DNA of 64,000 bases, from positions 124,001 to 188,000 of the forward strand of contig NZ_MVBC01000010.1 in assembly GCF_002007105.1 (NCBI RefSeq), given 5' to 3'. Within the stretch, counting starts at the first letter, position 1; every line of letters begins with the position of its first letter. The DNA is from Hymenobacter sp. CRA2 (GTDB lineage Bacteria > Bacteroidota > Bacteroidia > Cytophagales > Hymenobacteraceae). This document shows positions 1,467 to 16,623 of this stretch, in pieces. The notes under the pieces were generated by a model. That model was not told where the DNA came from. It was given only the letters and a program-made list of their open reading frames with translations, and ran no database searches. Position numbers and translations under genes: made by a program.

Positions 1467-2222
1467 ATGGCAAAGCAGGACACGAAAGCCAGCAAAGAAA
1501 CTTTCGCTTTACCATCATCCCCTTATGATGAACTAAGCCGCATTATCCAGTCGTACGCCCGCAGAGGCGACAACGTGAGCTTGGCGGATGTCGCCCGTTT
1601 AAGTGGCTTAACTGAAGACACCATCAGCAGAAACAATGCTTTTTTAACCACATCGGGATTAATAGCTGGGGGCAATGCCAAAAGCGCTACCGATTTGGGC
1701 AAACGTTTAGGGCGAGCATTAGAGCACGAACAGGCCGACGACGTGCGCAATTGCCTCGCTGAAATGGTGCAGGCCGTTCCGTTTTTGACTGACTTGCTTT
1801 CACCCGCACGGATGAAGAAGGGCAATACGGAAGCTGAACTAGTCGCACATATCTTATATGTGGCAGACATACCCAGGACCAATACAAAGAAAGTAACCGG
1901 TGCACATGCCGTTGTTCGAATCCTCCTGGAAGCGGGCTTACTTACCGATGACAACGGCACTCTTCGCCTTCAAGCAGGAACGCCCCCGCAAGCCGAACCC
2001 GTCTCAAGCAACGGCCAGGCGCCGCCAGCCGAGCCAGCGCCCCAACCAAGTAACGCTGCCCAACCTACCACGTCGGTGCCTCTTACGACTGCCGCCACCA
2101 CGGCCGGACCCTTTGCTATTGCTATTAATATTCAGTTAGAGTTGCCAGCCTCGACTGATCCAACGGTGTATGAGAACCTTTTCAAGGCGTTGAAAAAGCA
2201 TCTATTGTCGGGCAATGAGTAG
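1467..2222 (+). CDS. Winged-helix protein, probable DNA-binding partner of HEPN gene
   Basis: A 251-residue protein of no named family that I recognise with certainty. Residues 15-80 look like a winged helix: SLADVARLSGLTEDTISR resembles helix-turn-helix, followed by a wing-like segment and TDLGKRLG. Residues 115-170 (VTGAHAVVRILLEAGLL) look like a second winged helix. A Pro/Ala/Gln-rich linker (172-210) follows, then a conserved-looking tail (about 213-247, with INIQLELP and YENLFKALKKHL) that I associate with proteins of defence islands; this last point is memory, not measured. Its stop overlaps the start of the HEPN gene by 8 bases (ATGAGTAG), implying translational coupling. It could be a sensor or an autorepressor. 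Confidence 0.7.
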   Translation: MAKQDTKASKETFALPSSPYDELSRIIQSYARRGDNVSLADVARLSGLTEDTISRNNAFLTTSGLIAGGNAKSATDLGKRLGRALEHEQADDVRNCLAEMVQAVPFLTDLLSPARMKKGNTEAELVAHILYVADIPRTNTKKVTGAHAVVRILLEAGLLTDDNGTLRLQAGTPPQAEPVSSNGQAPPAEPAPQPSNAAQPTTSVPLTTAATTAGPFAIAINIQLELPASTDPTVYENLFKALKKHLLSGNE

Positions 2223-2757
2223 CCAATGGCTTGACTTGGTAGCTCAGTGGCAACAAAAAGCTGCAGCAGCTCAAGAAGAAGCACACCGAGTTTTGGCCGT
2301 TCACGAAGGCGCTGTTAAGTCGCGTGTAATCGTGTTGGAGGATGTGATGCGGAAACTGACCGCATCACCGCTGCCATCGGACGTGCAGGATTATTTTCGG
2401 GAAGCTATAACGTGTTTGGAGCATGATGCTCGCCGGGCGGCTATTGTGCTGTCGTGGGCAGGCTTCTTTTATACCATCTGCGAGAAGCTGTATAGCCAAC
2501 ACGAAGCTGCGTTGCGCATGGCTTACCCCAATTGGCAATTTACTAGTTTTGAGGAGTTAAAAGAGACCTACAACGAGTTTCAATTAATAGAAGCTATGCG
2601 CAAGGTAAGCCTGATTTCAAAGCCTGAAATGCGACAGTTTCAGGGTCTACTGGCTCAACGCAATCAGTGTGCTCATCCAACCCGATATCAACCTAGCATG
2701 AACGAAGCTTTAGGCTTTGTGAGTCAGGTGCTTGATCAAGCTATTCGACACCTTTGA
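2215..2757 (+). CDS. HEPN-like protein with Rx4H motif
   Basis: A 180-residue, mostly helical protein. Near the C-terminus R149-N-Q-C-A-H154 fits the Rx4-6H signature of HEPN domains, which in many toxin and defence systems is the RNase active site; the polar residue after Arg (Asn150) is also typical. Upstream, DVQDYFREAITCLEHDARRA fits the first HEPN helices. The gene overlaps the preceding winged-helix gene by 8 bases, so both are very likely one unit. HEPN domains may also be catalytically silent scaffolds. RNase activity is inferred from the motif alone; association with the TIR gene rests on proximity only. Confidence 0.75.
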   Translation: MSSQWLDLVAQWQQKAAAAQEEAHRVLAVHEGAVKSRVIVLEDVMRKLTASPLPSDVQDYFREAITCLEHDARRAAIVLSWAGFFYTICEKLYSQHEAALRMAYPNWQFTSFEELKETYNEFQLIEAMRKVSLISKPEMRQFQGLLAQRNQCAHPTRYQPSMNEALGFVSQVLDQAIRHL

Positions 2758-4517: not shown

Positions 4518-5765
4518 TTAGCGCTTGATGGTGAGCAGGGGCACTTGCTGGTAGTCCTTCATGTCGCTGATGATCAGTTCGTCGCCGGGGCGCAAGCCGC
4601 TCAGCACCTGCACGTAGTCGAAGTTGGAGTCGCCGAAGCGCACGGTGCGGCGCACGGCCTGGTCATCGTGCAGCACAAACACCTCCTGCTCGCGGCCACC
4701 TTGGTAGTAGGGGCCGTTTTTCACCCGCAGCGTGCCGCGGTGGGCGCGCGTCACCACGTACACGTCGGTGCGCAGGTTGGCGCGCAGGGCGGGGTGGTTG
4801 TTCTGCTCCAGGCGGACGTAGAAAGTCACCACGCCCTTGTCCACGGCCGGGCTGATGGAGCTGATGGTGCCGCGCAGATCGGTACCGCTCAGGCGCACTA
4901 TCACCGCATCGCCCAGGTGCAGGGAGTCGGCGTAGGCATCGGCGATGGTGGCGCGCACCCGGAAGGAGCTCAAATCGGCGACCCGGGCCAGCACCTGGCC
5001 CTGCGTCACGGTCGAGCCAATGTCCTCATTGACCCAGGTAAGCACGCCGGCCTGATCGGCGCTGACGGTGGCCTGGCGCAGCTTGCCGGCCAGCTCACGG
5101 ATGCTGCGGTCCTGCATCTGCACGGTGTAGCCCAGCCCCCGCTCGTCGGCTTGGTTGGACTGCCGCTGGTTTTGCATCTGGCGGCGCACTTTCTGCAGCT
5201 CCAGCTCGGCAATCTTCAGGTTCAGCTCGGCCTGGCGCACGCCTTCCTGGGTGCCCGAGCCGATGCCGAGCAGGTGCTGCTCGTCGCGCAGGGCCGATTG
5301 CAGGCTGCGCACTTTCTCCTGCTGCACCTGCTGCTGGGCTTCCAGGTCGTTGAGGCTGCGCTCCAGGGAGAGTTGCAGCAGGGTGCTCTTGTTACGGTTT
5401 TGCAGCTGCTCGTCCTGCAGCTTGGCCAGGGCCGTGCTGGTCAGCTCCTTATCCAACTCCAGAATGGGCTGGCCCGGCTGCACCTTGTCGCCGGCCGTGA
5501 GCAGCACGCGCCGCACCGTGGACTGGATGGGGCTGGTAACGACGGCTTCGTGGGCTGGAATAACCACGCCGGCAGCGGTCAGCGAGGCTTCCACGTCGCC
5601 AGTTTCCACCACGGCGGTTAGGAGTTCGTCCTGCTTGATGCTAGGCCGCAGTACACTGCGGAAGGCCCATAGCCCGCCGGCCACCAGCAGCAGCACGGCA
5701 GTGGCCAGCAACCAGCGCTGGCGGCGGCGTTTGGCCTGAATAGCGGGCGATATAGCTCTGTCCAT
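4518..5765 (-). CDS. HlyD/MacA-type periplasmic adaptor protein
   Basis: A 415-residue membrane-fusion protein linking an inner-membrane transporter to a TolC-type channel. The start MDRAISPAIQ at 5765 is preferred because residues 15-40 then give a basic segment plus one membrane anchor (WLLATAVLLLVAGGLWAF). Order: anchor, beta-barrel/lipoyl half (ETGDVEASLTAAGVV, PGQPILELD), long coiled-coil hairpin (about 110-230, Gln/Leu/Arg-rich), second lipoyl half (ADQAGVLTWV, GQVLARVADL), then barrel and membrane-proximal domains ending with VLSGLRPGDELIIS. It resembles adaptors of MacB-type ABC pumps. The partner pump is not in the window. The TolC-type gene follows. Confidence 0.88.
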   Translation of the reverse strand: MDRAISPAIQAKRRRQRWLLATAVLLLVAGGLWAFRSVLRPSIKQDELLTAVVETGDVEASLTAAGVVIPAHEAVVTSPIQSTVRRVLLTAGDKVQPGQPILELDKELTSTALAKLQDEQLQNRNKSTLLQLSLERSLNDLEAQQQVQQEKVRSLQSALRDEQHLLGIGSGTQEGVRQAELNLKIAELELQKVRRQMQNQRQSNQADERGLGYTVQMQDRSIRELAGKLRQATVSADQAGVLTWVNEDIGSTVTQGQVLARVADLSSFRVRATIADAYADSLHLGDAVIVRLSGTDLRGTISSISPAVDKGVVTFYVRLEQNNHPALRANLRTDVYVVTRAHRGTLRVKNGPYYQGGREQEVFVLHDDQAVRRTVRFGDSNFDYVQVLSGLRPGDELIISDMKDYQQVPLLTIKR

Positions 5766-6005
5766 TTTCGTTCGGATTGGGGGTCGTTTGGGGAACAAGC
5801 AGCCAAGCCCAATGCCAAAATCATAACCACCATTTTGTCAGACACTTATATTCAACTTATCGTCACTTAGCCCCTAAAATATTGTCCGGATGTGGACACT
5901 GTGTTCGGTTATGCCCGGGCTTTGTCGTACAAGCTTGGTCAACCCAACGGGAAGCATAAAATTTACCTGCGGCCATATGCATCCAGCCACGAGCAAAGCC
6001 GTACA

Positions 6006-6030
6006 TTAGCAAAAAGCTAAATTATTTAGC
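6006..6030 (+). promoter_or_regulatory. Palindrome plus half-site upstream of the Ubl-like gene
   Basis: TTAGC-N5-GCTAA (6006-6020) is a perfect 5-bp-arm palindrome, and TTTAGC repeats at 6025-6030, ten bases before the ATG at 6040. This could be an operator or a translational control site; function is inferred only from symmetry and position. Confidence 0.3.
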
Positions 6031-6039
6031 AAACGCAAC

Positions 6040-6435
6040 ATGAAAACAACGCTGCTGATCCAGGACGAAACGGCCACCGGCGCCGTGCTGCACCGCCTAG
6101 CCTTGGAGCTAACCCACGAAACCATCACCGTGCGCGAGCTGATCGAACAGCGTGTGCGCCAGGAAGTAGCGGCGCATAACCAGCGCAACGACGACGTGTT
6201 CAGTGGCCTCGTGCAGCCCACCGACTCGGAGCGGGTACTCAACGGCTACCGCCTGAAAAAGCAGCACCACATCGACGCGGAAAAGCAGCTTTACCGGGCG
6301 CTGGAGGCCTTTCAGCAGAACGGCTACTTCATCCTGGTGAACGACCGGCAGGTAGAAAGCCTCGACGAGCAGATCTGGCTCGGTCCCGGCGCCACGGCCA
6401 GCTTCGTGAAACTGACTCCGCTGGTTGGCGGCTGA
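6040..6435 (+). CDS. Beta-grasp (ubiquitin/MoaD-like) protein ending in Gly-Gly
   Basis: A 131-residue protein. The N-terminus (KTTLLIQDE, a second strand, then the helix ITVRELIEQRVRQEV) fits strand-strand-helix of a beta-grasp fold. The C-terminus fits the MoaD/ThiS pattern: FILVNDRQVESLD, then WLGPGATASF and a final TPLVGG; E. coli MoaD has VNQ...DHPL...GDEVAFFPP...GG in equivalent order. A 50-residue mostly helical insert (about 48-95) makes it longer than MoaD (81 residues). The exposed diglycine tail suggests adenylation, thiolation or conjugation by an E1-like enzyme, but no E1, E2 or protease gene is nearby. It sits 5 bases before the DUF4132 gene and so forms an operon with it. The fold assignment is mine, by eye. 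Confidence 0.7.
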   Translation: MKTTLLIQDETATGAVLHRLALELTHETITVRELIEQRVRQEVAAHNQRNDDVFSGLVQPTDSERVLNGYRLKKQHHIDAEKQLYRALEAFQQNGYFILVNDRQVESLDEQIWLGPGATASFVKLTPLVGG

Positions 6436-6440
6436 GCCGG

Positions 6441-9086
6441 ATGAGCGCCTGGTCGGAGCTGTGGCAACGCGCGCAGGACGCGGCGGCCCGGCTGTTTGCT
6501 GATGTTTCTCCCAATCCTTCCCCCATGTCCGTTACTGAAAAAGCCCGCTCGTTTGAACAAGCCCTGAACGGCAGCAGCGCCGAAGCCCAGGAAATGCAGC
6601 CCGTGCTCCGGCAGCTGCTGCTCGACATCGAGGAGCGCCAGATGAGCTACTACTCCCTGAAGCTGCTGGAAATACCCACCTACCAGGGCATCCGCGCGCA
6701 GGACGCCGCCTACAAGGGCCGCCTGGTACTGGCCGCGGCGGAGGCCATCCGGTTTTGCCGCGACAATCACGGCGCGGTCGACTACAGCATCCGCAACCTG
6801 TTTGAGGCCCTGCTGCAACAGCTGCTGCGCTCCACTCTGGAGCTAAGCGCGCCCCAATTGCTGCGGCTGCTGGAGCTGTACGGCATCCACTTCCCCGCCA
6901 CCGACAAGGCCGCTGAGGTAGGTCATGCCCTGATTATGGCGCCCGTGCTGCTGACGCTGGGGCAGGTGGAGAAATACCAGAAAAAGCACGGCCCCGACGC
7001 CGCACTGACGCGCTGCCTGCACCAGCTGCTGGCCGCTACCGGGCGCAACGCCAGCGGCTACGGGGTGAGCACGGAGGTCAAGATCCGGCTGAAGCTGCAG
7101 GAACTGCTGGGCACCCACGACGAGGCCGCGCTGCCCGCCGTGCAGTTCGTCGACGGGGACGCCTTCGGCCGCCACCTCAACGAATTCGTGGCCAGCCTGC
7201 CCCCGGCCGATGTCACCACCCGCCCCTGGCTGCAGCTGCTGCAGCTCTGGCAGAAGCCCAGCGGCGCGCAGCCCACGGTCAAGTTTCGCAAGGAAGTCGA
7301 TGCGCTGATAGCCGCCATCGGGCCCGAAGCCGTGCAGGTCCGGACCGGGCAGTGGCTGGAGCTGCTCACCACCCTGCCCGTGGAGGAGCGGCAGCACACT
7401 TTCGGCGTTGAGTGGCACTTCCTGCATGAGCCCAGCCTGCACGTAGCTAAGGGCCTAGTCTGGACCCTGGGCCCCACCGCCGACGCAACCCAGCAGCAAC
7501 TGCTGGCCGACCTCGCGCTAAAGTGCTACCGCAAGGTGCCGGGGCGCGGCCCGCTGGCCGCGAGCCTGGGCAACGCCTGCCTGTCGGCGCTGGCGCAGGG
7601 CGGGCTGCCGGGGGTGGCGCACCTGTCGCGCCTGCGGGCCAAGGTGCGCCAGACCAATACCCAAGAGCTGATCGGCCGCTACATCGAGAAGGCCTCGGCC
7701 GAGCTGGGCGTGACGCCGGCTGAAATCGAGGACATGGCCGTGCCCACCTGCGGCCTCAGCCAGGGCCGCGCCGACTTCGATTACGGCGACTACCACGTGG
7801 TGCTGCAGCTCACCGACGGCAAGGCTGAAGTGAGCTGGCAGAAGGGTGGCAAGGTGCTCAAAAGCGCCCCGGCGGCGCTGAAATCCACTCACGCCGCCGA
7901 GCTGAAGGAGCTGAAAACCGCCCAGACCCAGGCCCAGCAAACCTTCACCACTCAGCGCGACCGGCTCGACCGCAGCTTTGTGGAGGGCCGCCGCCTGCCC
8001 TATGCCTGGTTCCGGCAGTACTACCTGGAGCACGGCCTGCTCAGCCTGCTCACCCAGCGCCTGATCTGGCGCTTCTCCCATCCCGACGGTACCCACCACG
8101 ACGCCCTCTGGCTCGACGAAGCCTGGCGCGACGCCCAGGAGCAGCCCGTGCCCGCCCCCACCGACGAGACGCAGGTGCAGCTCTGGCACCCCGTCCTCTC
8201 CCCTACCGATGAGGTGCTGGCCTGGCGGGCCTTGCTGGAGCGCCGCGAGCTGCGCCAGCCGCTCAAGCAGGCCTTCCGCGAGGTCTACCTGCTCACGCCG
8301 CCCGAGGAGCGCACCCGCACCTACTCCAACCGCATGGCCGCGCATATTCTCAAGCAGCACCAGTTCAACTCGCTGGCCCGGCTGCGCGGCTGGCGCTACG
8401 CGCTGATGGGTGCTTACGACAAAGGCTACGAGTCGGACGCGGCCCAGCTGGCCCTGCCGGCGCACGATTTGCGGGCCGAGTTCTGGGTAAGCGAAGTCAA
8501 CGCCGACAACGCCTTCAACGACACCGGCATCTGGCACTACGTGAGCACCGACCAGCTGCGCTTTACTCACTTGGCTGGCGAGGAAACGCTGCCCCTGACC
8601 GACATTCCGCCGCTGGTTTTCTCCGAAGTCATGCGCGACGTGGACCTGTTCGTCGGCGTGGCCTCGGTGGGCAACGACCCGCTCTGGCGCGACGGCGGCG
8701 GGCTGGTGCAGTACCGTAACTACTGGGAGAGCTACAGCTTCGGGGAACTGTCGGAGGTGGCCAAAAACCGCAAGCTGGCCCTACAGCGCCTGGTGCCGCG
8801 CCTGCGCATTGCCAAGGTCAGCGAAATCCAGGACCGTTTCCTGGTGGTCAAAGGCAAGCTGCGCACCTACAAGATTCACCTCGGCTCGGGCAACATCCTG
8901 ATGGAGCCCAACGACCAGTACCTCTGCATCGTGCCCGACCGCTCGGGCAAGCAGGCCGGCACCGGCGACGTGTTCCTCCCCTTTGAAGGCGACGCCATCC
9001 TGAGCATCATCCTGAGCAAAGCCCTGCTGCTGGCCGACGACGACAAAATCACCGACGAAACCATCACCCGCCAGATCCGGAACTAA
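6441..9086 (+). CDS. DUF4132 protein (MolR/YehI-like)
   Basis: A large cytosolic protein, 881 residues from the ATG at 6441 or 853 from MSVTEKARSF at 6525; the first start lies 5 bases after the Ubl-like gene. The N-terminal two thirds look like helical repeats. The C-terminal third carries the DUF4132 signature: RQPLKQAFREVYLLTPPE near residue 610, then RMAAHILKQHQFNSLARLRGW. DUF4132 is the domain of E. coli MolR/YehI, a protein of unresolved biochemical role; here there is no N-terminal WGR domain, which many relatives have. The tight pairing with a Gly-Gly-ended beta-grasp protein suggests the two act together, perhaps as target or partner. No catalytic motif was recognised. Confidence 0.8.
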   Translation: MSAWSELWQRAQDAAARLFADVSPNPSPMSVTEKARSFEQALNGSSAEAQEMQPVLRQLLLDIEERQMSYYSLKLLEIPTYQGIRAQDAAYKGRLVLAAAEAIRFCRDNHGAVDYSIRNLFEALLQQLLRSTLELSAPQLLRLLELYGIHFPATDKAAEVGHALIMAPVLLTLGQVEKYQKKHGPDAALTRCLHQLLAATGRNASGYGVSTEVKIRLKLQELLGTHDEAALPAVQFVDGDAFGRHLNEFVASLPPADVTTRPWLQLLQLWQKPSGAQPTVKFRKEVDALIAAIGPEAVQVRTGQWLELLTTLPVEERQHTFGVEWHFLHEPSLHVAKGLVWTLGPTADATQQQLLADLALKCYRKVPGRGPLAASLGNACLSALAQGGLPGVAHLSRLRAKVRQTNTQELIGRYIEKASAELGVTPAEIEDMAVPTCGLSQGRADFDYGDYHVVLQLTDGKAEVSWQKGGKVLKSAPAALKSTHAAELKELKTAQTQAQQTFTTQRDRLDRSFVEGRRLPYAWFRQYYLEHGLLSLLTQRLIWRFSHPDGTHHDALWLDEAWRDAQEQPVPAPTDETQVQLWHPVLSPTDEVLAWRALLERRELRQPLKQAFREVYLLTPPEERTRTYSNRMAAHILKQHQFNSLARLRGWRYALMGAYDKGYESDAAQLALPAHDLRAEFWVSEVNADNAFNDTGIWHYVSTDQLRFTHLAGEETLPLTDIPPLVFSEVMRDVDLFVGVASVGNDPLWRDGGGLVQYRNYWESYSFGELSEVAKNRKLALQRLVPRLRIAKVSEIQDRFLVVKGKLRTYKIHLGSGNILMEPNDQYLCIVPDRSGKQAGTGDVFLPFEGDAILSIILSKALLLADDDKITDETITRQIRN

Positions 9087-9138
9087 CGGACTCCGGCTAC
9101 TTGCTGCACGGGCCGCAGCGCTGGCCCCTGCCGAATGC

Positions 9139-9173
9139 AAACCGCCCGCTCAGCCTAGGCCGAGCGGGCGGTT
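9139..9173. terminator. Bidirectional terminator
   Basis: A perfect stem AACCGCCCGCTC / GAGCGGGCGGTT lies between the convergent DUF4132 (+) and PID-CTERM (-) genes. Confidence 0.8.
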
Positions 9174-9192
9174 CCGTGTAAGCCAGATACGA

Positions 9193-9405
9193 CTAGCGGC
9201 GCTTGCGCAGGCGCTTGAGGGCGTAGGCGGCCCCGCCAGCCAGCAGCAGCGAAGCCCCGCCGTCGATGGGCACGGCCGTAGGATCGGGAGGAGTAACCGG
9301 GCCGGGTACGGGGCCACCCGAGCCGGGGCCCTGGGCCGAAGCAGTGTGCATCAGCGCAGTCAGGCCGCAGGTGATGCCGAAGCAGAGTAGAAAGCGACGA
9401 TTCAT
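9193..9405 (-). CDS. Small PID-CTERM sorting-domain protein
   Basis: A 70-residue secreted protein. It has an N-terminal signal (MNRRFLLCFGITCGL to about residue 25), a Gly/Pro-rich spacer, then PIDGG, a hydrophobic stretch (SLLLAGGAAYAL) and a basic end (KRLRKRR). This tripartite tail is the PID-CTERM signal of Bacteroidota, thought to be recognised by a dedicated exosortase; that enzyme is not in the window. Its ATG lies 2 bases after the stop of the kelch/T9SS gene, so the two are co-transcribed. There is almost no mature domain, so it may be a small surface or matrix protein. Confidence 0.8.
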   Translation of the reverse strand: MNRRFLLCFGITCGLTALMHTASAQGPGSGGPVPGPVTPPDPTAVPIDGGASLLLAGGAAYALKRLRKRR

Positions 9406-9407
9406 AA

Positions 9408-12404
9408 TTATTGCACGGTGATTTTGCGGGTGATGGTGCCGGCTTCGGTGCTCAGCTGCAGGGTGTACAACCCGGCGGCCAGGCCAGCGGTAGGCAGGGT
9501 CAGGCGCATTTCGCTGCTGGTCAGCGGTGCGCTGCTGGCGCGCACTACCTGCCCAACGGCGCTAAGCAGGCGTACCTGGGCAGTCTTACCGCGCAGGCCC
9601 GCTGCAGCCACATTCAGCGGAGCGCCGGCCGTGGGGTTGGGGTACACTTGCAGCTCGCCGGCCCAGGTGTTCTTGGTGTTGGCCAGCGGCCGGGCAGCGT
9701 TGAAGTGCAGCACGAAGCGCGTGGTGCTCAGGCCCTGCGGCAGCTGCGCCGCGTAGGCGCCCTGACGCAGGTCGTGCCAGGTGCCGGTTTGCCGGTCTTC
9801 CAGCATAATCTGGTCAGCGGCCGGGAAGTTGATCAGCTGCTCGGGCGTAAACAGGTAGGTACCCGCTACCGGGGCGTTCAGCCCCAGCGGCATAACGAGC
9901 GGCTGGTTGCCGGTCGGCACGCCCTGAATGGCCAGGGCATCAGGCCCGGCCTGCTGGTAGAGCGTGGGCTGCTGGCCGCCGTTGAGCTGCACTTTTAGCG
10001 CGTCGTAGGGCGCATCGAAAGCGGGCGTAGCGCCGGCCTGCTGGTACACGTAGAGGGCATCCTGGCTATTGGCACCGGCTGCACCCTGGCGCTGCAGCGT
10101 CAGTTGCAGCAGCGGACGCGTTTCGGTGGTGGCAGGGCGGCTGTAGGTCGGCTCGGCGTAAGTGGTGAGGCGGGCGGCGTTGGTGAAGCTCACGCTACCC
10201 GAAGCGCCAGCCGACGATACCCGCACGAAGAAGGCCTGGCCCATCGGCAGGAGGTTGTTGGTGCCCACCCCGTTGACGTAGGCCGTGTAGCCGCCGGAGT
10301 AACGGTCGTTGGAGTGGTACACGTAAGCCGCCGCGTCCACGTTGGTGCGCCCCACCAGGTTCCAGTCCACGGGCGCGGGGTATGGATTGCCAATCAGGTG
10401 CCAGCCCGCTTCGGATGCTGCGCCACGCGTCAGGCCAGATCGGGTGATGTTGCCCGTATTCAGCGACGACCCGGTCACCTCAAAGAAGTTGCCGGCCGGC
10501 TCGTTGATGGTGTAGCCAGTCGTGGGCGCTATTACCTGATTGGTAGCAGTCGGGGACTGCCAGCCCTGATCGAAGCTGGCCAGGCTGGTGCTGGCGGCCG
10601 AAACGCGGTTTTCGCTGTAGCCGAAGATGGTCGGGAACGGCGTTACCAGGCCCGGGTTGGCAGCCGAGTTGTAGGCGGCGTTGATCCGGATAGGGCCGGC
10701 ACTATCGGCGGCGGGCAGGCTCGGGAAAACGGCCAGCGTAGCCAGCGTAGCCCCGTTCACGGCCGGCGTCCAGTGGCGGTAGCCGAAGCCCGCATTGCCG
10801 GCCGGAGCGATGTAGCGCTGCACGGTAGCGTTGCCGGACACGGTGCCGCCGTTGTTCACCACCATGCCCGTTCCGATGTAGTTCGACAGGATGAGGAAGC
10901 GCTGCCCGTTGGTGTTCAGCGTGCCCGTCAGCGTCAGCAGGCGCTGAATCTCGGTGCGGCCCGTCAGCGTGGCCCCGGAGGCGCCCACCGTCAGGTTGCG
11001 GAACTGCGTGGGGCTGCTCCCGCCGACGCTCTGCGCGGCAGTGCCGGTCAGCGTCACGGTTGCGTTGCCATTGGCGGCGAAGGTGCCATCGTTGTCGAAG
11101 TCGCCGGCTATGGCCAGGGTAGCGCCGTCGCCCACCGTCAGCGTGGCGCCGGGGTTCACTGTCACGTTGCGCGCCGCGGCCGTGGTGGTGCTCACCACCG
11201 GGTAGCGCGCGAGGCCGCCGGGAATGGTCACGTCGTCGCCCGCCGTGGGCACTACCCCGCCCGACCAATTCGAGGCCACGGCCCAAGCGGTGGAGGTAGC
11301 GCCCGTCCAGGCGTAGCTGTTGGTCACGGTGGTGCGGTACAGCACGTTGCGTTGCGTGCCCACCGTCGAAGACGCCGGCCCGGAGGTACCGGCTACCGTG
11401 TACAAGTCGTTGCCGATGGCTACGGTGCGCGTCTCGCTCAGCGGCAGGGGCAGGCTGGTGCCGGCGCTCCAGGAGTTGGTGCTGGGCGTGTACACGTACA
11501 CCGTAGCAAACATCGGCGTGGCGCCGTTGTAGTAGCTCTCCTTACCCCCTACCACGTACAGCCTGCCGTCGGCCCCGAGGGCCCCGCCGGCTTGGTTGAT
11601 GCCTACCGGCAGCGCCGCCGCCGTGGTCCAGGTATTGGTCATGGCGTTATAGACCAGGTGCGAGGTCAGGGCCGTGTTGCCGCCGTCGGTGCTGTTGGTT
11701 CCGCCGATGATGTGAATCAGCCCCGCCGCATCGGCAATGGCCACGTGGCCGTGCCGCCCGATGGGCATGGGGGCGCCCGTGGTCCAGGAGTTGGTGGAGG
11801 GCGTGTAAATCTGCGTTTGGGTCGAAGCCCCGTTGCCGCCCGCCCAGCCGCCGAACAGGTAAATCTTGCCGTTGGCCGTTACGGCGGCGGATTCCCACAC
11901 GCCCACGGGCAGGCTGGCAATAGCGGTCCAGACGTTGGTGGCCGGGTCGTAGCGGTAAGCCGAGCTGCTGGCCGTGCCGTCGCCCAGGCTGTAAATCAGC
12001 CCACCGGGCCCCACCACCCCCGCAAAGCCCCGGGAGGCATAGGGGTAGTTGGCGCCGGTGCTCCAGGTGTTGGTGGCCACGTTGTAGATTTCCATGCTGG
12101 AAAACTCGCTCGTGCTGCCGTTGAAGTCGCCTACGTAGCCGCCCCAGGCGTAGATCTTGCCGTTCAGGGCCACGGCCGCGTGCTGGCTTCGGCTCTGGCT
12201 CAGGCCGGTCAGCTGATTCCAGGCGGCCAGCGTGCGCGACTGCGGCAGCACGGGAGCCACGGAGCGGGCCATGGAGCGGATAACGGCACCCGGGGCCAGC
12301 TGCCCCGGAATGAGTTGGCGGGTGGTGGGCTGCTGGGCCAGCGCGGGCACGGCAACGGCCTCAACCAGCGTAGCCAGCGCTAGAAAGGGTAAAATCTGCT
12401 TCAT
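9408..12404 (-). CDS. Kelch-repeat protein with T9SS type A sorting domain
   Basis: A 998-residue secreted protein. The signal peptide (MKQILPFLALATLVEAVAVPALAQ) is followed by six or so kelch repeats (about 75-350, with GGYVGD, LFGGWAGG, HIIGGTN, YVVGGKES) forming a beta-propeller. Next is a Gly/Thr/Val-rich parallel beta region (about 365-480, with DDVTIPGG and repeated VTVNPGATLTVGDGA-like turns), a long domain of unknown fold, and a C-terminal type A sorting domain (LQVYPNPTAG to ITRKITVQ). The latter directs export by the type IX system and cleavage or anchoring at the cell surface. It is co-transcribed with the PID-CTERM gene. The ligand is unknown. Confidence 0.85.
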   Translation of the reverse strand: MKQILPFLALATLVEAVAVPALAQQPTTRQLIPGQLAPGAVIRSMARSVAPVLPQSRTLAAWNQLTGLSQSRSQHAAVALNGKIYAWGGYVGDFNGSTSEFSSMEIYNVATNTWSTGANYPYASRGFAGVVGPGGLIYSLGDGTASSSAYRYDPATNVWTAIASLPVGVWESAAVTANGKIYLFGGWAGGNGASTQTQIYTPSTNSWTTGAPMPIGRHGHVAIADAAGLIHIIGGTNSTDGGNTALTSHLVYNAMTNTWTTAAALPVGINQAGGALGADGRLYVVGGKESYYNGATPMFATVYVYTPSTNSWSAGTSLPLPLSETRTVAIGNDLYTVAGTSGPASSTVGTQRNVLYRTTVTNSYAWTGATSTAWAVASNWSGGVVPTAGDDVTIPGGLARYPVVSTTTAAARNVTVNPGATLTVGDGATLAIAGDFDNDGTFAANGNATVTLTGTAAQSVGGSSPTQFRNLTVGASGATLTGRTEIQRLLTLTGTLNTNGQRFLILSNYIGTGMVVNNGGTVSGNATVQRYIAPAGNAGFGYRHWTPAVNGATLATLAVFPSLPAADSAGPIRINAAYNSAANPGLVTPFPTIFGYSENRVSAASTSLASFDQGWQSPTATNQVIAPTTGYTINEPAGNFFEVTGSSLNTGNITRSGLTRGAASEAGWHLIGNPYPAPVDWNLVGRTNVDAAAYVYHSNDRYSGGYTAYVNGVGTNNLLPMGQAFFVRVSSAGASGSVSFTNAARLTTYAEPTYSRPATTETRPLLQLTLQRQGAAGANSQDALYVYQQAGATPAFDAPYDALKVQLNGGQQPTLYQQAGPDALAIQGVPTGNQPLVMPLGLNAPVAGTYLFTPEQLINFPAADQIMLEDRQTGTWHDLRQGAYAAQLPQGLSTTRFVLHFNAARPLANTKNTWAGELQVYPNPTAGAPLNVAAAGLRGKTAQVRLLSAVGQVVRASSAPLTSSEMRLTLPTAGLAAGLYTLQLSTEAGTITRKITVQ

Positions 12405-14012: not shown

Positions 14013-14245
14013 GTGCGCAAAGTAGCGGAACTGCTGCGGAGCGTTGCGCACGTGGAGCTACAGTTTTTGCGCCACGCAGTACCCCAGCTGCGTCAGAAGC
14101 AGTACCCAACGCATGGCTGAGGCGGCTAAAGCAGCAAACCGGGCACGGCGCAAAACCCATTTGGGCTCTACGGCTTATTCTCTACAGGCATGTAGAACAT
14201 GCAAAGGGGCTGCTGCAAGAGCCTTAATTCGCGAACCAGCTGCCG

Positions 14246-14262
14246 GGCTTGTCGTACCTTGG
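14246..14262 (+). promoter_or_regulatory. Candidate Bacteroidota promoter of pncB
   Basis: TACCTTGG at 14255-14262 resembles the -7 box TAnnTTTG of Bacteroidota sigma factor, 24 bases before the ATG at 14286. The -33 TTG element is not clear. Confidence 0.35.
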
Positions 14263-14285
14263 CTCGTCCGCTGTCCTTAGCTCCT

Positions 14286-15770
14286 ATGTCCGACACGCCC
14301 CTCTCCAGCCTCTACCGGCCCTCCCTCACCCTGCTCACCGACCTTTACCAGCTCACCATGGCGTACGGCTACTGGCGGCAGGGCATGCAGGACCGTGAGG
14401 CCGTGTTCCACCTGTACTTCCGTAAGGCGCCGTTCAACGGCGGCTACGCCGTGGCCGCCGGCCTGGCCTACGCCGTCGACTGGCTGGAAAACCTGCGCTT
14501 CTCGGAAGAAGACCTGGCTTACCTTGGCTCCCTGCGCGGCAGCAAGGGCGGCGTGATGTTCGAGCAGGGCTTCCTGGATTATCTGCGCGACCTGCGCTTC
14601 ACCTGCGACGTGGACGCGGTGGCCGAAGGCACGGTGGTGTTCGGCAACGAGCCGCTGATGCGCATCCAGGGCCCGCTGCTGCAGGCCCAGCTGGTGGAAA
14701 CGGCCCTGCTCACGCTCGTGAACTTCCAGACGCTGATTGCCACCAAAGCGGCCCGCATCCGCGAAGCCGTGGGCCCGAATGACCAGATTCTGGAGTTCGG
14801 CCTGCGCCGCGCCCAGGGCTTCGACGGCGGCCTCTCGGCTACCCGCGCCGCCTACCTCGGCGGCGCCGACGGCACCTCGAACGTGCTGGCCGGGCAGCAG
14901 TTTGGCATCCCCGTGCGCGGCACCCACGCCCACAGCTGGGTAATGGCCTTCGAGGGCGAGGAAGAAGCCTTCGACAAGTACGCCGACGCCTTCCCCGACG
15001 ATTCCGTGTTCCTCGTGGATACCTACGACACGCTGGAAGGCGTGCGCAACGCCATCAAAGTAGCCGAGCGCCTGCGTGAGCGGGGCCACGAGCTGGGCGG
15101 CATCCGTCTCGACTCCGGTGACCTGACCTACCTCAGCGTGCAGGCCCGCCAGCTGCTCGACGCGGCCGGCTTCCCCAAGGTGCGCATTGTAGCCAGCAAC
15201 GACTTGGACGAGCAACTCGTCACCGCTCTCAAACTCGAAGGCGCCCGCATCGACACCTGGGGCATCGGCACCAAGCTCGTCACGGCCTACGACCAGCCGG
15301 CACTGGGCGGCGTGTACAAGCTGGCTGCCATGAAAAAGGCGGACAACTCTGGCTGGGACTACACCATCAAGCTTTCCGAGCAACTGGCCAAAACCAGCAT
15401 CCCCGGCATCCTGCAGATCCGGCGCTTCTACCACGACGGCAAACCCGTGGCCGATATGCTCTACAACTCGGCCGAGCCGCTGCCCGAGCAGCTCACCATC
15501 GTGGACCCGCTGGACCCCACGCGCCGCCGCCCGGTGCAAACCACCAAGTACCGGGAGTTGCTGGAGCCGGTGTTCCGTCAGGGTAAGCGCGTGCTGGAGC
15601 TACCCACGCTGGCCGAGAGCCGTCAAAGAGCCCGCGAAGAAGTCACTTCGCTCGACCCGAGTACCCGCCGTTTCCTGAACCCGCACACTTACCCGGTGGG
15701 CCTGGAACGCGGCCTGCACGAGTTCCGCACCCAGCTGATTCTGGAGAAGCGGCCGCAGCGGCCGGCGTAA
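14286..15770 (+). CDS. pncB: Nicotinate phosphoribosyltransferase
   Basis: A 494-residue enzyme that makes nicotinate mononucleotide from nicotinate and PRPP with ATP use, in NAD salvage. The start MSDTPLSSLYRPSL is chosen; an open frame extends 29 codons upstream but is not protein-like. Motifs: LLTDLYQLTMAYGYW (N-terminal signature), EFGLRRAQGFDGG (phosphate and nicotinate loop), GTHAHSWVMAF, IRLDSGDL (the PRPP-side Asp) and ASNDLDE, plus GIGTKLVTAYDQPALGGVYKL. Length and motifs fit the bacterial PncB1/2 group (about 440-490). It is monocistronic, followed by a hairpin terminator. Confidence 0.95.
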   Translation: MSDTPLSSLYRPSLTLLTDLYQLTMAYGYWRQGMQDREAVFHLYFRKAPFNGGYAVAAGLAYAVDWLENLRFSEEDLAYLGSLRGSKGGVMFEQGFLDYLRDLRFTCDVDAVAEGTVVFGNEPLMRIQGPLLQAQLVETALLTLVNFQTLIATKAARIREAVGPNDQILEFGLRRAQGFDGGLSATRAAYLGGADGTSNVLAGQQFGIPVRGTHAHSWVMAFEGEEEAFDKYADAFPDDSVFLVDTYDTLEGVRNAIKVAERLRERGHELGGIRLDSGDLTYLSVQARQLLDAAGFPKVRIVASNDLDEQLVTALKLEGARIDTWGIGTKLVTAYDQPALGGVYKLAAMKKADNSGWDYTIKLSEQLAKTSIPGILQIRRFYHDGKPVADMLYNSAEPLPEQLTIVDPLDPTRRRPVQTTKYRELLEPVFRQGKRVLELPTLAESRQRAREEVTSLDPSTRRFLNPHTYPVGLERGLHEFRTQLILEKRPQRPA

Positions 15771-15909: not shown

Positions 15910-16623
15910 TTATGCGACGTTCCAGCCAGCCTTATTGCTGTATGTTTCAAAGCTGACTTGTGAAACATACGGGTACTCTTCGCCCTTCGTCTTCCGCTCG
16001 TATGCCTGCTGGGCCAGGTACAGCACACTCTCGAATTCCATATTTACCGGCCATTCATCCGGATTCGCCAGAACCTGCTCGAAGAACGCCTTTCCATTGA
16101 CGACGACAGCGCAACGGCTGTACAAAAAATCGTCAACCGAAATATAAGGCTGGCCGCCAATATAGGTTTTAGGACCCGGGTAACAGGCATCGGCGTAACG
16201 CTGCCCATCCAGTAAATACAGCTTCTCGGCCAATAGCTCATCAAAGGCGAAAATATCCTCAGCTGGCATAGCTGCCAGGCGCTTTTCGGCGGGGCGCATC
16301 ACGGCTTCGTCGTCGCCAGTTCGCTTCCAGTTGAAGGCCGCAATCAACTCCCAGAACAAGTCCTCATCCATGGGTCGGTATGCGGTTGCCTGCTTAGCCG
16401 GAATAGGCTCGTCGGTTCCTACTTCGCGGTAGCCCTTTTTCAGCTTCTCCTGAATCAGCTTGGCCGCTTCGGCTTCGCAGGTGGCCACGTCCGCCAGCTC
16501 TTTTCGGTTCACGCGCCCATTCGTACCCACTTTGCCGAACGTCACGGTATACGCCGCGCCATTGGTTACGATGTTCCAGAACTTGTTCGATTCGCCTTCT
16601 TGGTTGATGAAGTAACGTTGCAC
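15910..16623 (-). CDS. WGR-DUF4240 protein
   Basis: A 237-residue cytosolic protein. Residues 1-75 are a WGR domain: MQRYFINQEGESNKFWNI, then VTFGKVGTNGRVNRKEL, in which the usual W-G-R appears as F-G-K...G-R, and helix EAEAAKLIQEKLKKGYREV. Residues 85-225 fit DUF4240: DEDLFWELIAAFNW, then AEDIFAFDELLAEKLYLLDG. WGR domains bind nucleic acids or polymer in PARP relatives and occur in MolR proteins. DUF4240 has no known biochemical role. It is separated from purM by a strong palindromic terminator, so it is probably its own unit. The function is unknown. Confidence 0.75.
   Translation of the reverse strand: MQRYFINQEGESNKFWNIVTNGAAYTVTFGKVGTNGRVNRKELADVATCEAEAAKLIQEKLKKGYREVGTDEPIPAKQATAYRPMDEDLFWELIAAFNWKRTGDDEAVMRPAEKRLAAMPAEDIFAFDELLAEKLYLLDGQRYADACYPGPKTYIGGQPYISVDDFLYSRCAVVVNGKAFFEQVLANPDEWPVNMEFESVLYLAQQAYERKTKGEEYPYVSQVSFETYSNKAGWNVA

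Follow-up and report, generated by a model that had tools for sequence, protein, structure and literature searches.

What does a DUF4132 protein, a member of a family so far without a function beyond a doubtful link to molybdate, do with the small Gly-Gly-ended protein encoded immediately ahead of it? The question is raised by two genes of Hymenobacter sp. CRA2 that lie in a 64,000-nt stretch of contig NZ_MVBC01000010.1 (positions 124,001 to 188,000; this whole stretch is referred to as the window, and coordinates are those of the window unless another locus is named). The first, an open reading frame (ORF) at 6040..6435 (+), encodes a 131-amino-acid (aa) protein with a free C-terminal Gly-Gly (...ATASFVKLTPLVGG; KLTPLVGG), called Ubl below for its predicted ubiquitin-like fold, and the second, at 6441..9086 (+), encodes the 881-aa DUF4132 protein. 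The gap between the Ubl stop and the ATG of the next ORF is 5 nt (6436..6440, +), which is consistent with a single transcript. Both ORFs were confirmed where an initial annotation, made from the sequence alone, had placed them. That annotation had proposed a new ubiquitin-like or sulfur-carrier module, a proposal that is partly upheld, by the predicted fold, the gene linkage and the Gly-Gly tail of most homologues, and that has to be modified in that the tail is not invariant.

Ubl and its partner, with an E1 activating enzyme in some bacteria, point to an undescribed ubiquitin-like pathway. At its core, E1-adenylated Ubl would be handed to the DUF4132 protein, probably via a cysteine at residue 829 (C829), for conjugation or for sulfur or acyl donation under stress; the probability given to this reading is about 0.58. 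Its computed basis consists of a fold prediction, a near-strict gene partnership, E1 operons, conservation of Gly-Gly and the joint behaviour of Gly-Gly and C829, and from it we infer adenylation, transfer to C829, the nature of the product and, for this organism, the supply of an E1 in trans and a role in stress.

The AlphaFold2 model of Ubl, built from 48 homologues (predicted local distance difference test, pLDDT, 77.7; predicted template modelling score, pTM, 0.67), has strands at residues 3-10 and 16-24, helices at 31-49 and 80-92, and strands at 96-100, 111-113 and 119-124. The layout is thus strand-strand-helix, as had been read from the N-terminal sequence, followed by an inserted low-confidence stretch, more helices, the three remaining strands and a loose tail. 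In a Foldseek search of the PDB, 44 of the 50 matches listed (the best 50 of 641 at E up to 10) were ubiquitin-like by title. The matches listed, at E-values of 0.005-0.023, include ubiquitin, ISG15, NEDD8, SUMO, Urm1 (presumably the identity of PDB 1wgk) and MoaD-type or molybdopterin synthase chains; 5mpo_B, an 84-aa chain of human molybdopterin synthase, gave a Foldseek probability of 1.00 and a template modelling score of 0.71 by target length. Each match alone is weak, and it is their concordance that argues for the predicted beta-grasp fold, in keeping with the resemblance to ubiquitin and MoaD that had been anticipated. A published structure prediction of DR_A0165, the Deinococcus orthologue of Ubl, pointed to relatives of MoaD/SAMP1 type, 5MPO, 3PO0 and 1WGK among them (PMC9650054). 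Pfam gave no significant match for the window Ubl. Over 38 members of the family, the best hits in Pfam (E 0.0037, 1 member), NCBIfam (E 0.0025, 4 members) and a PDB-sequence profile search (E 0.48) were all to unrelated families. The predicted fold, the free Gly-Gly and the ThiF-family E1 liken Ubl to MoaD, ThiS and Urm1 with MoeB, ThiF and Uba4; Ubl differs from these in its greater length (127-155 aa in intact members), its insertion between the helices and its lack of a significant Pfam match.

Its partner carries DUF4132 at residues 470-651 (Pfam PF13569, E 5e-41) and a second domain, DUF7737, missed by the initial annotation, at residues 774-879 (PF24879, E 3e-40). DUF7737, of which no mention was found in the literature searched, is present in the DUF4132 proteins scanned next to Ubl and absent from the scanned Escherichia coli YehI and from two Iodobacter and one Burkholderia DUF4132 proteins. 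YehI shares DUF4132 with the window protein (E 2e-47). Its gene precedes MoxR-type, VWA and SWIM genes, and no Ubl is annotated next to it; no MoxR, VWA or SWIM gene was found among the scanned neighbours of the window pair. The yehH (MolR) gene, presumably the same as molR, is a pseudogene in K-12. The suggested connection with molybdate is disfavoured by the DUF7737 domain of the Ubl-linked proteins, absent in YehI, and by three operon-bearing genomes without detected MoaE or ThiS/MoaD (see below). The conserved C-terminal module (residues 392-881) was modelled at pLDDT 83.8; the model gave no significant Foldseek match in the PDB (best E 0.099) and the module's profile none among PDB sequences, and the enzyme class is therefore not named. 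All 53 aligned DUF4132 rows keep H583, H813 and many charged residues. A catalytic cysteine kept in every member was considered and rejected, no Cys reaching 93% of these rows.

Searches for Ubl homologues gave hits in 14 of 98 relatives (one of them weak), in 9/395 genomes of the phylum, 14/395 of the class, 10/149 of one family and 1/99 of one order, these genome sets overlapping, as well as on 14 genome contigs, including a Lysobacterales metagenome-assembled genome, and in plasmid-collection records of Nonomuraea, Novosphingobium, Deinococcus and Bacteroides. The window Ubl had no homologue among phage records at E up to 0.01. Assignment to a known phage-defence system was dropped: PADLOC matched neither the Ubls nor the DUF4132 protein of the window and gave one non-significant hit (E 0.32) for the Deinococcus DUF4132 protein. 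Locus counts below refer to 55 distinct loci read with flanks; strong Ubl copies lacking wide flanks (L007, L011, L013) and weak matches (L002, L015, L019) are not among them, and L060 and L064 were removed as duplicates of L024 and L020, respectively.

The pair spans four phyla, and its linkage, for which a neighbourhood survey had been suggested, proved to be conserved. A same-strand DUF4132 gene accompanies Ubl at 52/55 loci, with Ubl first in 48 and DUF4132 first in 4, and at none is it on the opposite strand. The loci without DUF4132 are L051 (near a contig end), L102 (a diverged copy) and L112 (a broken fragment). Within the 52, L050 and L058 have a split or fragmentary DUF4132 frame, the Ubl frame is broken in L110, and the gap between the genes exceeds 1 kb in L049 and L055. 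As an observation in its own right, the diverged or broken Ubl of L102, L110 and L112 and the damaged DUF4132 of L050 and L058 look like decay of the system in some lineages. In one and the same draw of 395 genomes of the class, 14 have Ubl, and the 13 with DUF7737 are every one of them among these 14 (Fisher p 2e-23, valid if genomes are independent).

E1 genes, the Gly-Gly tail and cysteine 829

An all-against-all comparison of neighbours revealed one further family that recurs widely outside the near-identical Hymenobacter surroundings; it occurs in 7 loci and sits directly after DUF4132 each time. Its members are ThiF-family E1 proteins of 225-240 aa (PF00899 in 7/7, E 2e-55 to 1e-66) that lack a rhodanese domain and keep the motifs NLxRQ, DC[ST]DN and [NS]C...G in 7/7, the cysteine of the last being presumably the MoeB/ThiF catalytic cysteine. 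A phage-integrase-like gene recurs in 4 loci and two more families are common to the E1 loci L053 and L099; beyond the E1, neighbour families reach at most 2 of the 7 E1 loci. The initial annotation had remarked that no E1, JAB or molybdenum-cofactor (Moco) gene lies alongside, which holds for the scanned neighbours of the window pair but not for the seven relatives with an E1 in the operon.

Fourteen genomes having the system were examined for ThiF, ThiS/MoaD and MoaE. In three of those that carry the three-gene operon (G580, G592 and G690), ThiS/MoaD and MoaE were not detected and no ThiF match in the genome scores better than the operonic E1, suggesting a dedicated use with Ubl. Ubl differs from MoaD and ThiS in being present in genomes where neither MoaE nor ThiS/MoaD was detected, and in having DUF4132-DUF7737 rather than MoaE or ThiG as its partner. 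Where the operon has no E1 (8 genomes), a strong ThiF protein (E 4e-64 or better) is encoded elsewhere in every case and could conceivably serve Ubl in trans, such proteins being common. The single ThiF-family protein found in the Hymenobacter sp. CRA2 genome is of MoeB type with a rhodanese domain; its gene, on another contig, shares a 16-kb stretch with the organism's own MoaD and MoaE and, by eye, a moaA-like ORF.

Among the bacterial operons described by Iyer et al. (2006; PMC1779556), type 6d is similar in combining a standalone Ubl, an E1-like gene and a conserved, probably enzymatic protein. In those operons a JAB domain or neighbour accompanies E1-like genes as a rule and an E2 is present in most types, whereas here the third protein is DUF4132-DUF7737, and neither E2 nor JAB was found among 11 scanned proteins flanking the E1 loci, the rest of the genomes not having been searched for them. 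YehI is not mentioned in the text of that paper, and no description of the Ubl-DUF4132-E1 arrangement was found in the accessible texts of the literature searched, which did not extend to subscription papers and preprints.

The Gly-Gly tail is present in 31/38 aligned Ubl homologues from four phyla, at identities to the window protein down to 19%, and in 39/55 loci. Judged from these alignments, the terminal Gly-Gly exceeds chance, contrary to the alternative raised in the initial annotation. It is accompanied by C829, the proposed acceptor cysteine, whose codon lies at 8925..8927 (+) within DUF7737 (YLCIVP). The position is Cys in 41/53 DUF4132 rows, including every row whose Ubl ends in Gly-Gly: 38/38 Gly-Gly loci with an aligned DUF4132 have Cys, as against 0/11 loci whose Ubl ends in Trp (W-tailed), where it is Ser, Asn, Ala or His. 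L032, L110 and L071 also have Cys there, and the Acetobacter protein L066, which has no Ubl nearby, has Phe.

In the proposed pathway, the C-terminal Gly-Gly of Ubl would be adenylated by a ThiF/MoeB-type E1, supplied by the third operon gene in some relatives and probably by the MoeB-rhodanese protein in trans in Hymenobacter sp. CRA2. Activated Ubl would then be passed to DUF4132-DUF7737, probably through C829, and the latter would either attach Ubl to target proteins or use it as a sulfur or acyl donor, possibly under stress such as DNA damage. Ubl and the E1 thereby give DUF4132 a testable chemistry and single out one cysteine.

Deinococcus orthologues and DNA damage

In Deinococcus radiodurans strain DRR11, a Ubl ending in ALAGG is encoded 2 nt before a DUF4132-DUF7737 gene. 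This pair is identified as DR_A0165-DR_A0166 by the gene order, DR_A0165 being placed between DR_A0164 (Trx1) and DR_A0166 (PMC9650054), the DUF4132 given in DRA0166 (PMC8533742) and the position of the DdrO site, which is printed for DRA0165 at -83 (PMC8533742) and was found 82 nt before the DRR11 Ubl gene. The Deinococcus pair is orthologous to that of the window and differs from it in a long DUF4132 protein, with DUF5724 ahead of DUF4132, and in its known induction by DNA damage. The drA0165-drA0166 operon is a DdrO target that is strongly induced upon DdrO depletion, and DRA0166-V5 rises after mitomycin C in the wild type and not in an irrE mutant (PMC8533742). Stress induction of the pair has been published for Deinococcus only (PMC8533742); the pathway reading, if correct, would tie an E1-Ubl system to the Deinococcus DNA-damage response.

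DR_A0165 is also known as SEP068184 and is said, in PMC9650054, to be restricted to Deinococcus and to have no radiation/desiccation response motif (RDRM) upstream. Contrary to the first statement, Ubl homologues occur in four phyla. Contrary to the second, 4/4 Deinococcus loci (L047, L048, L067 and L068) have a DdrO-type RDRM palindrome that begins 73-93 nt ahead of the start, with two bases changed in L068.

Objections and alternative roles

Several observations weigh against the pathway as proposed. The Foldseek E-values are weak (best 0.005), no sequence profile ties any of the 38 Ubl members to ThiS/MoaD, and the Urm1 profile matches only 1 of them (E 0.16). An E1 is adjacent in just 7/55 loci, and its presence in 6/39 Gly-Gly and 0/12 W-tailed loci is not a strong contrast; in a tree with the other ThiF proteins of these genomes, the operonic E1s are clustered and do not form one supported clade (2 changes). 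The E2 and JAB partners that were not found among the scanned flanking proteins count on the same side, as do two DUF4132-DUF7737 proteins with no Ubl detected nearby, L066 (an Acetobacter plasmid, gene at 6777-9575) and L071 (a second Nonomuraea copy). In D. radiodurans, 157 proteins were common to co-immunoprecipitations with N- and C-terminally tagged DR_A0165, and binding of Trx1 by DR_A0165 was confirmed by pull-down (PMC9650054), both of which fit non-covalent binding.

The tail itself provides the remaining objections. In 12/55 loci Ubl ends in Trp after a conserved Gly (GAYW, GSYW, GTYW, GRLW or GGW) and the DUF4132 partner is retained; the last two Gly, for which an alignment had been suggested, are therefore not invariant over the whole family, an outcome that the initial annotation had listed as counting against its proposal, and the W-tailed loci speak against a universal conjugation role. 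All 12 are from Bacteroidota; the DUF4132 frame next to Ubl is long (1,655-1,751 aa) in 11 of them and fragmentary in the twelfth (L058). The other four tails are L032, which ends in GV despite a Cys at the C829 position, L110 (frame-broken), L112 (fragment) and L102 (diverged). In the DUF4132 tree, which was midpoint-rooted for drawing only, the Deinococcus proteins group with the long forms (100/100) yet carry Gly-Gly and C829, so that the two features change jointly on a single branch (98/91). The change is read as a loss because Gly-Gly with C829 is widespread. As one event it does not constitute independent evidence, and it is suggestive of a link between tail and cysteine rather than proof.

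A more specific form of the pathway reading is possible, though tentative. In this form DUF4132-DUF7737 would be a Cys-dependent Ubl transferase of new fold that replaces E2 and E3: the E1 would charge Ubl, C829 would accept it, targets would be modified after DNA damage, and the W-tailed Bacteroidota would have lost the chemistry and kept the complex. If this were true, it would represent a Ubl-handling enzyme without a significant Foldseek match among solved folds.

A sulfur-carrier role, which overlaps with the pathway reading, is somewhat doubtful. By analogy with MoaD acting for MoaE and ThiS for ThiG, the E1 would make a C-terminal thiocarboxylate on Ubl and DUF4132-DUF7737 would insert the sulfur. 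The molybdopterin synthase chains and 1wgk among the Foldseek matches listed, the ThiF family membership of the E1s and the rhodanese domain on the CRA2 genome's own E1 are in its favour, as are the YeeE/YedE and thioredoxin genes that neighbour the D. radiodurans pair. However, YeeE/YedE adjoins the pair in only 1/4 Deinococcus loci viewed, the operonic E1s are devoid of rhodanese domains, and at most 2 of the 7 E1 loci share any family besides the E1.

The W-tailed branch shows, as far as these sequences go, that the Ubl-DUF4132 partnership can exist without Gly-Gly and C829, and therefore a purely non-covalent role has to be kept as a rival to the pathway reading. Ubl would then be a subunit or cofactor whose tail docks in DUF4132-DUF7737, Gly-Gly would be structural or serve docking, and the operon E1 would act in another step. 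This is rather unlikely. In the loci read, the W-tailed Ubls keep their partner and have no E1, both tail groups conserve one Gly at the same place of the alignment, and the published DR_A0165 interactions are pull-downs and co-immunoprecipitations with either terminus tagged (PMC9650054). Nevertheless, a ThiF-type E1 in the operon of Gly-Gly-tailed relatives, three of them in genomes without detected MoaD/ThiS, is hard to explain without activation of the tail, and Gly-Gly and C829 go together.

A chance Gly-Gly on a small protein that serves the DUF4132 protein as a dedicated chaperone, or inhibits it, is improbable. The near-strict pairing, the small size and a DR_A0165 deletion that had positive effects on antioxidant activity and left the DR_A0166 transcript unchanged (PMC9650054) could be accommodated, but the predicted beta-grasp fold, a tail conserved over four phyla and the E1 operons could not readily be. 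That Ubl is a second MoaD in Moco synthesis and DUF4132 a molybdate gene, as the MolR name and the Moco genes of the CRA2 genome might suggest, is very improbable, given the canonical MoaD and MoaE that accompany the MoeB-type protein on the other contig, which also led to rejection of Ubl as the organism's MoaD, the 5/14 Ubl genomes without detected MoaE, which argue strongly against it, and moeA and moeB levels unchanged on DdrO depletion (PMC8533742).

Surroundings of the pair in the window

The pair is flanked by an HlyD gene (4518-5798) and a Kelch gene (9408-12404). The unit here is taken to consist of two genes because both flanking genes are on the other strand. The neighbours scanned encode an outer-membrane efflux protein, HlyD, Kelch, an M28 peptidase, a nicotinate phosphoribosyltransferase (NAPRTase) and an AIRS protein. 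A possible operator, the perfect palindrome GCTAAATTATTTAGC (arms GCTAAAT and ATTTAGC around a single T), is located at 6016..6030, 9 nt before the Ubl start, and has 1 match within the window against 0.06 expected. An exact 7+1+7 palindrome is found at the equivalent place in 3/4 nearest relatives (L020, L022 and L023) and is degenerate in L021, and TTGCTAA/TTAGCAA-like half-sites lie upstream in several further Hymenobacter loci.

Some 7 kb from the DUF4132 gene, a WGR + DUF4240 protein (Pfam) is encoded at 15910-16623 (-); WGR is common to MolR. Within the accessible texts of the literature searched, WGR, MolR and ubiquitin were mentioned together only in jumbo-phage work, which is unrelated. 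A 180-aa protein encoded at 2215-2757 (+) overlaps by a few bases with a 251-aa protein at 1467-2222, and neither has a significant Pfam match; the 180-aa protein carries RNQCAHP, which presumably resembles a HEPN nuclease motif. A NAPRTase-family gene lies at 14199-15770 (+), 5 kb from the pair, and another is found in L110 at 10126-11571 (+), shortly after the E1; this recurrence may be coincidence.

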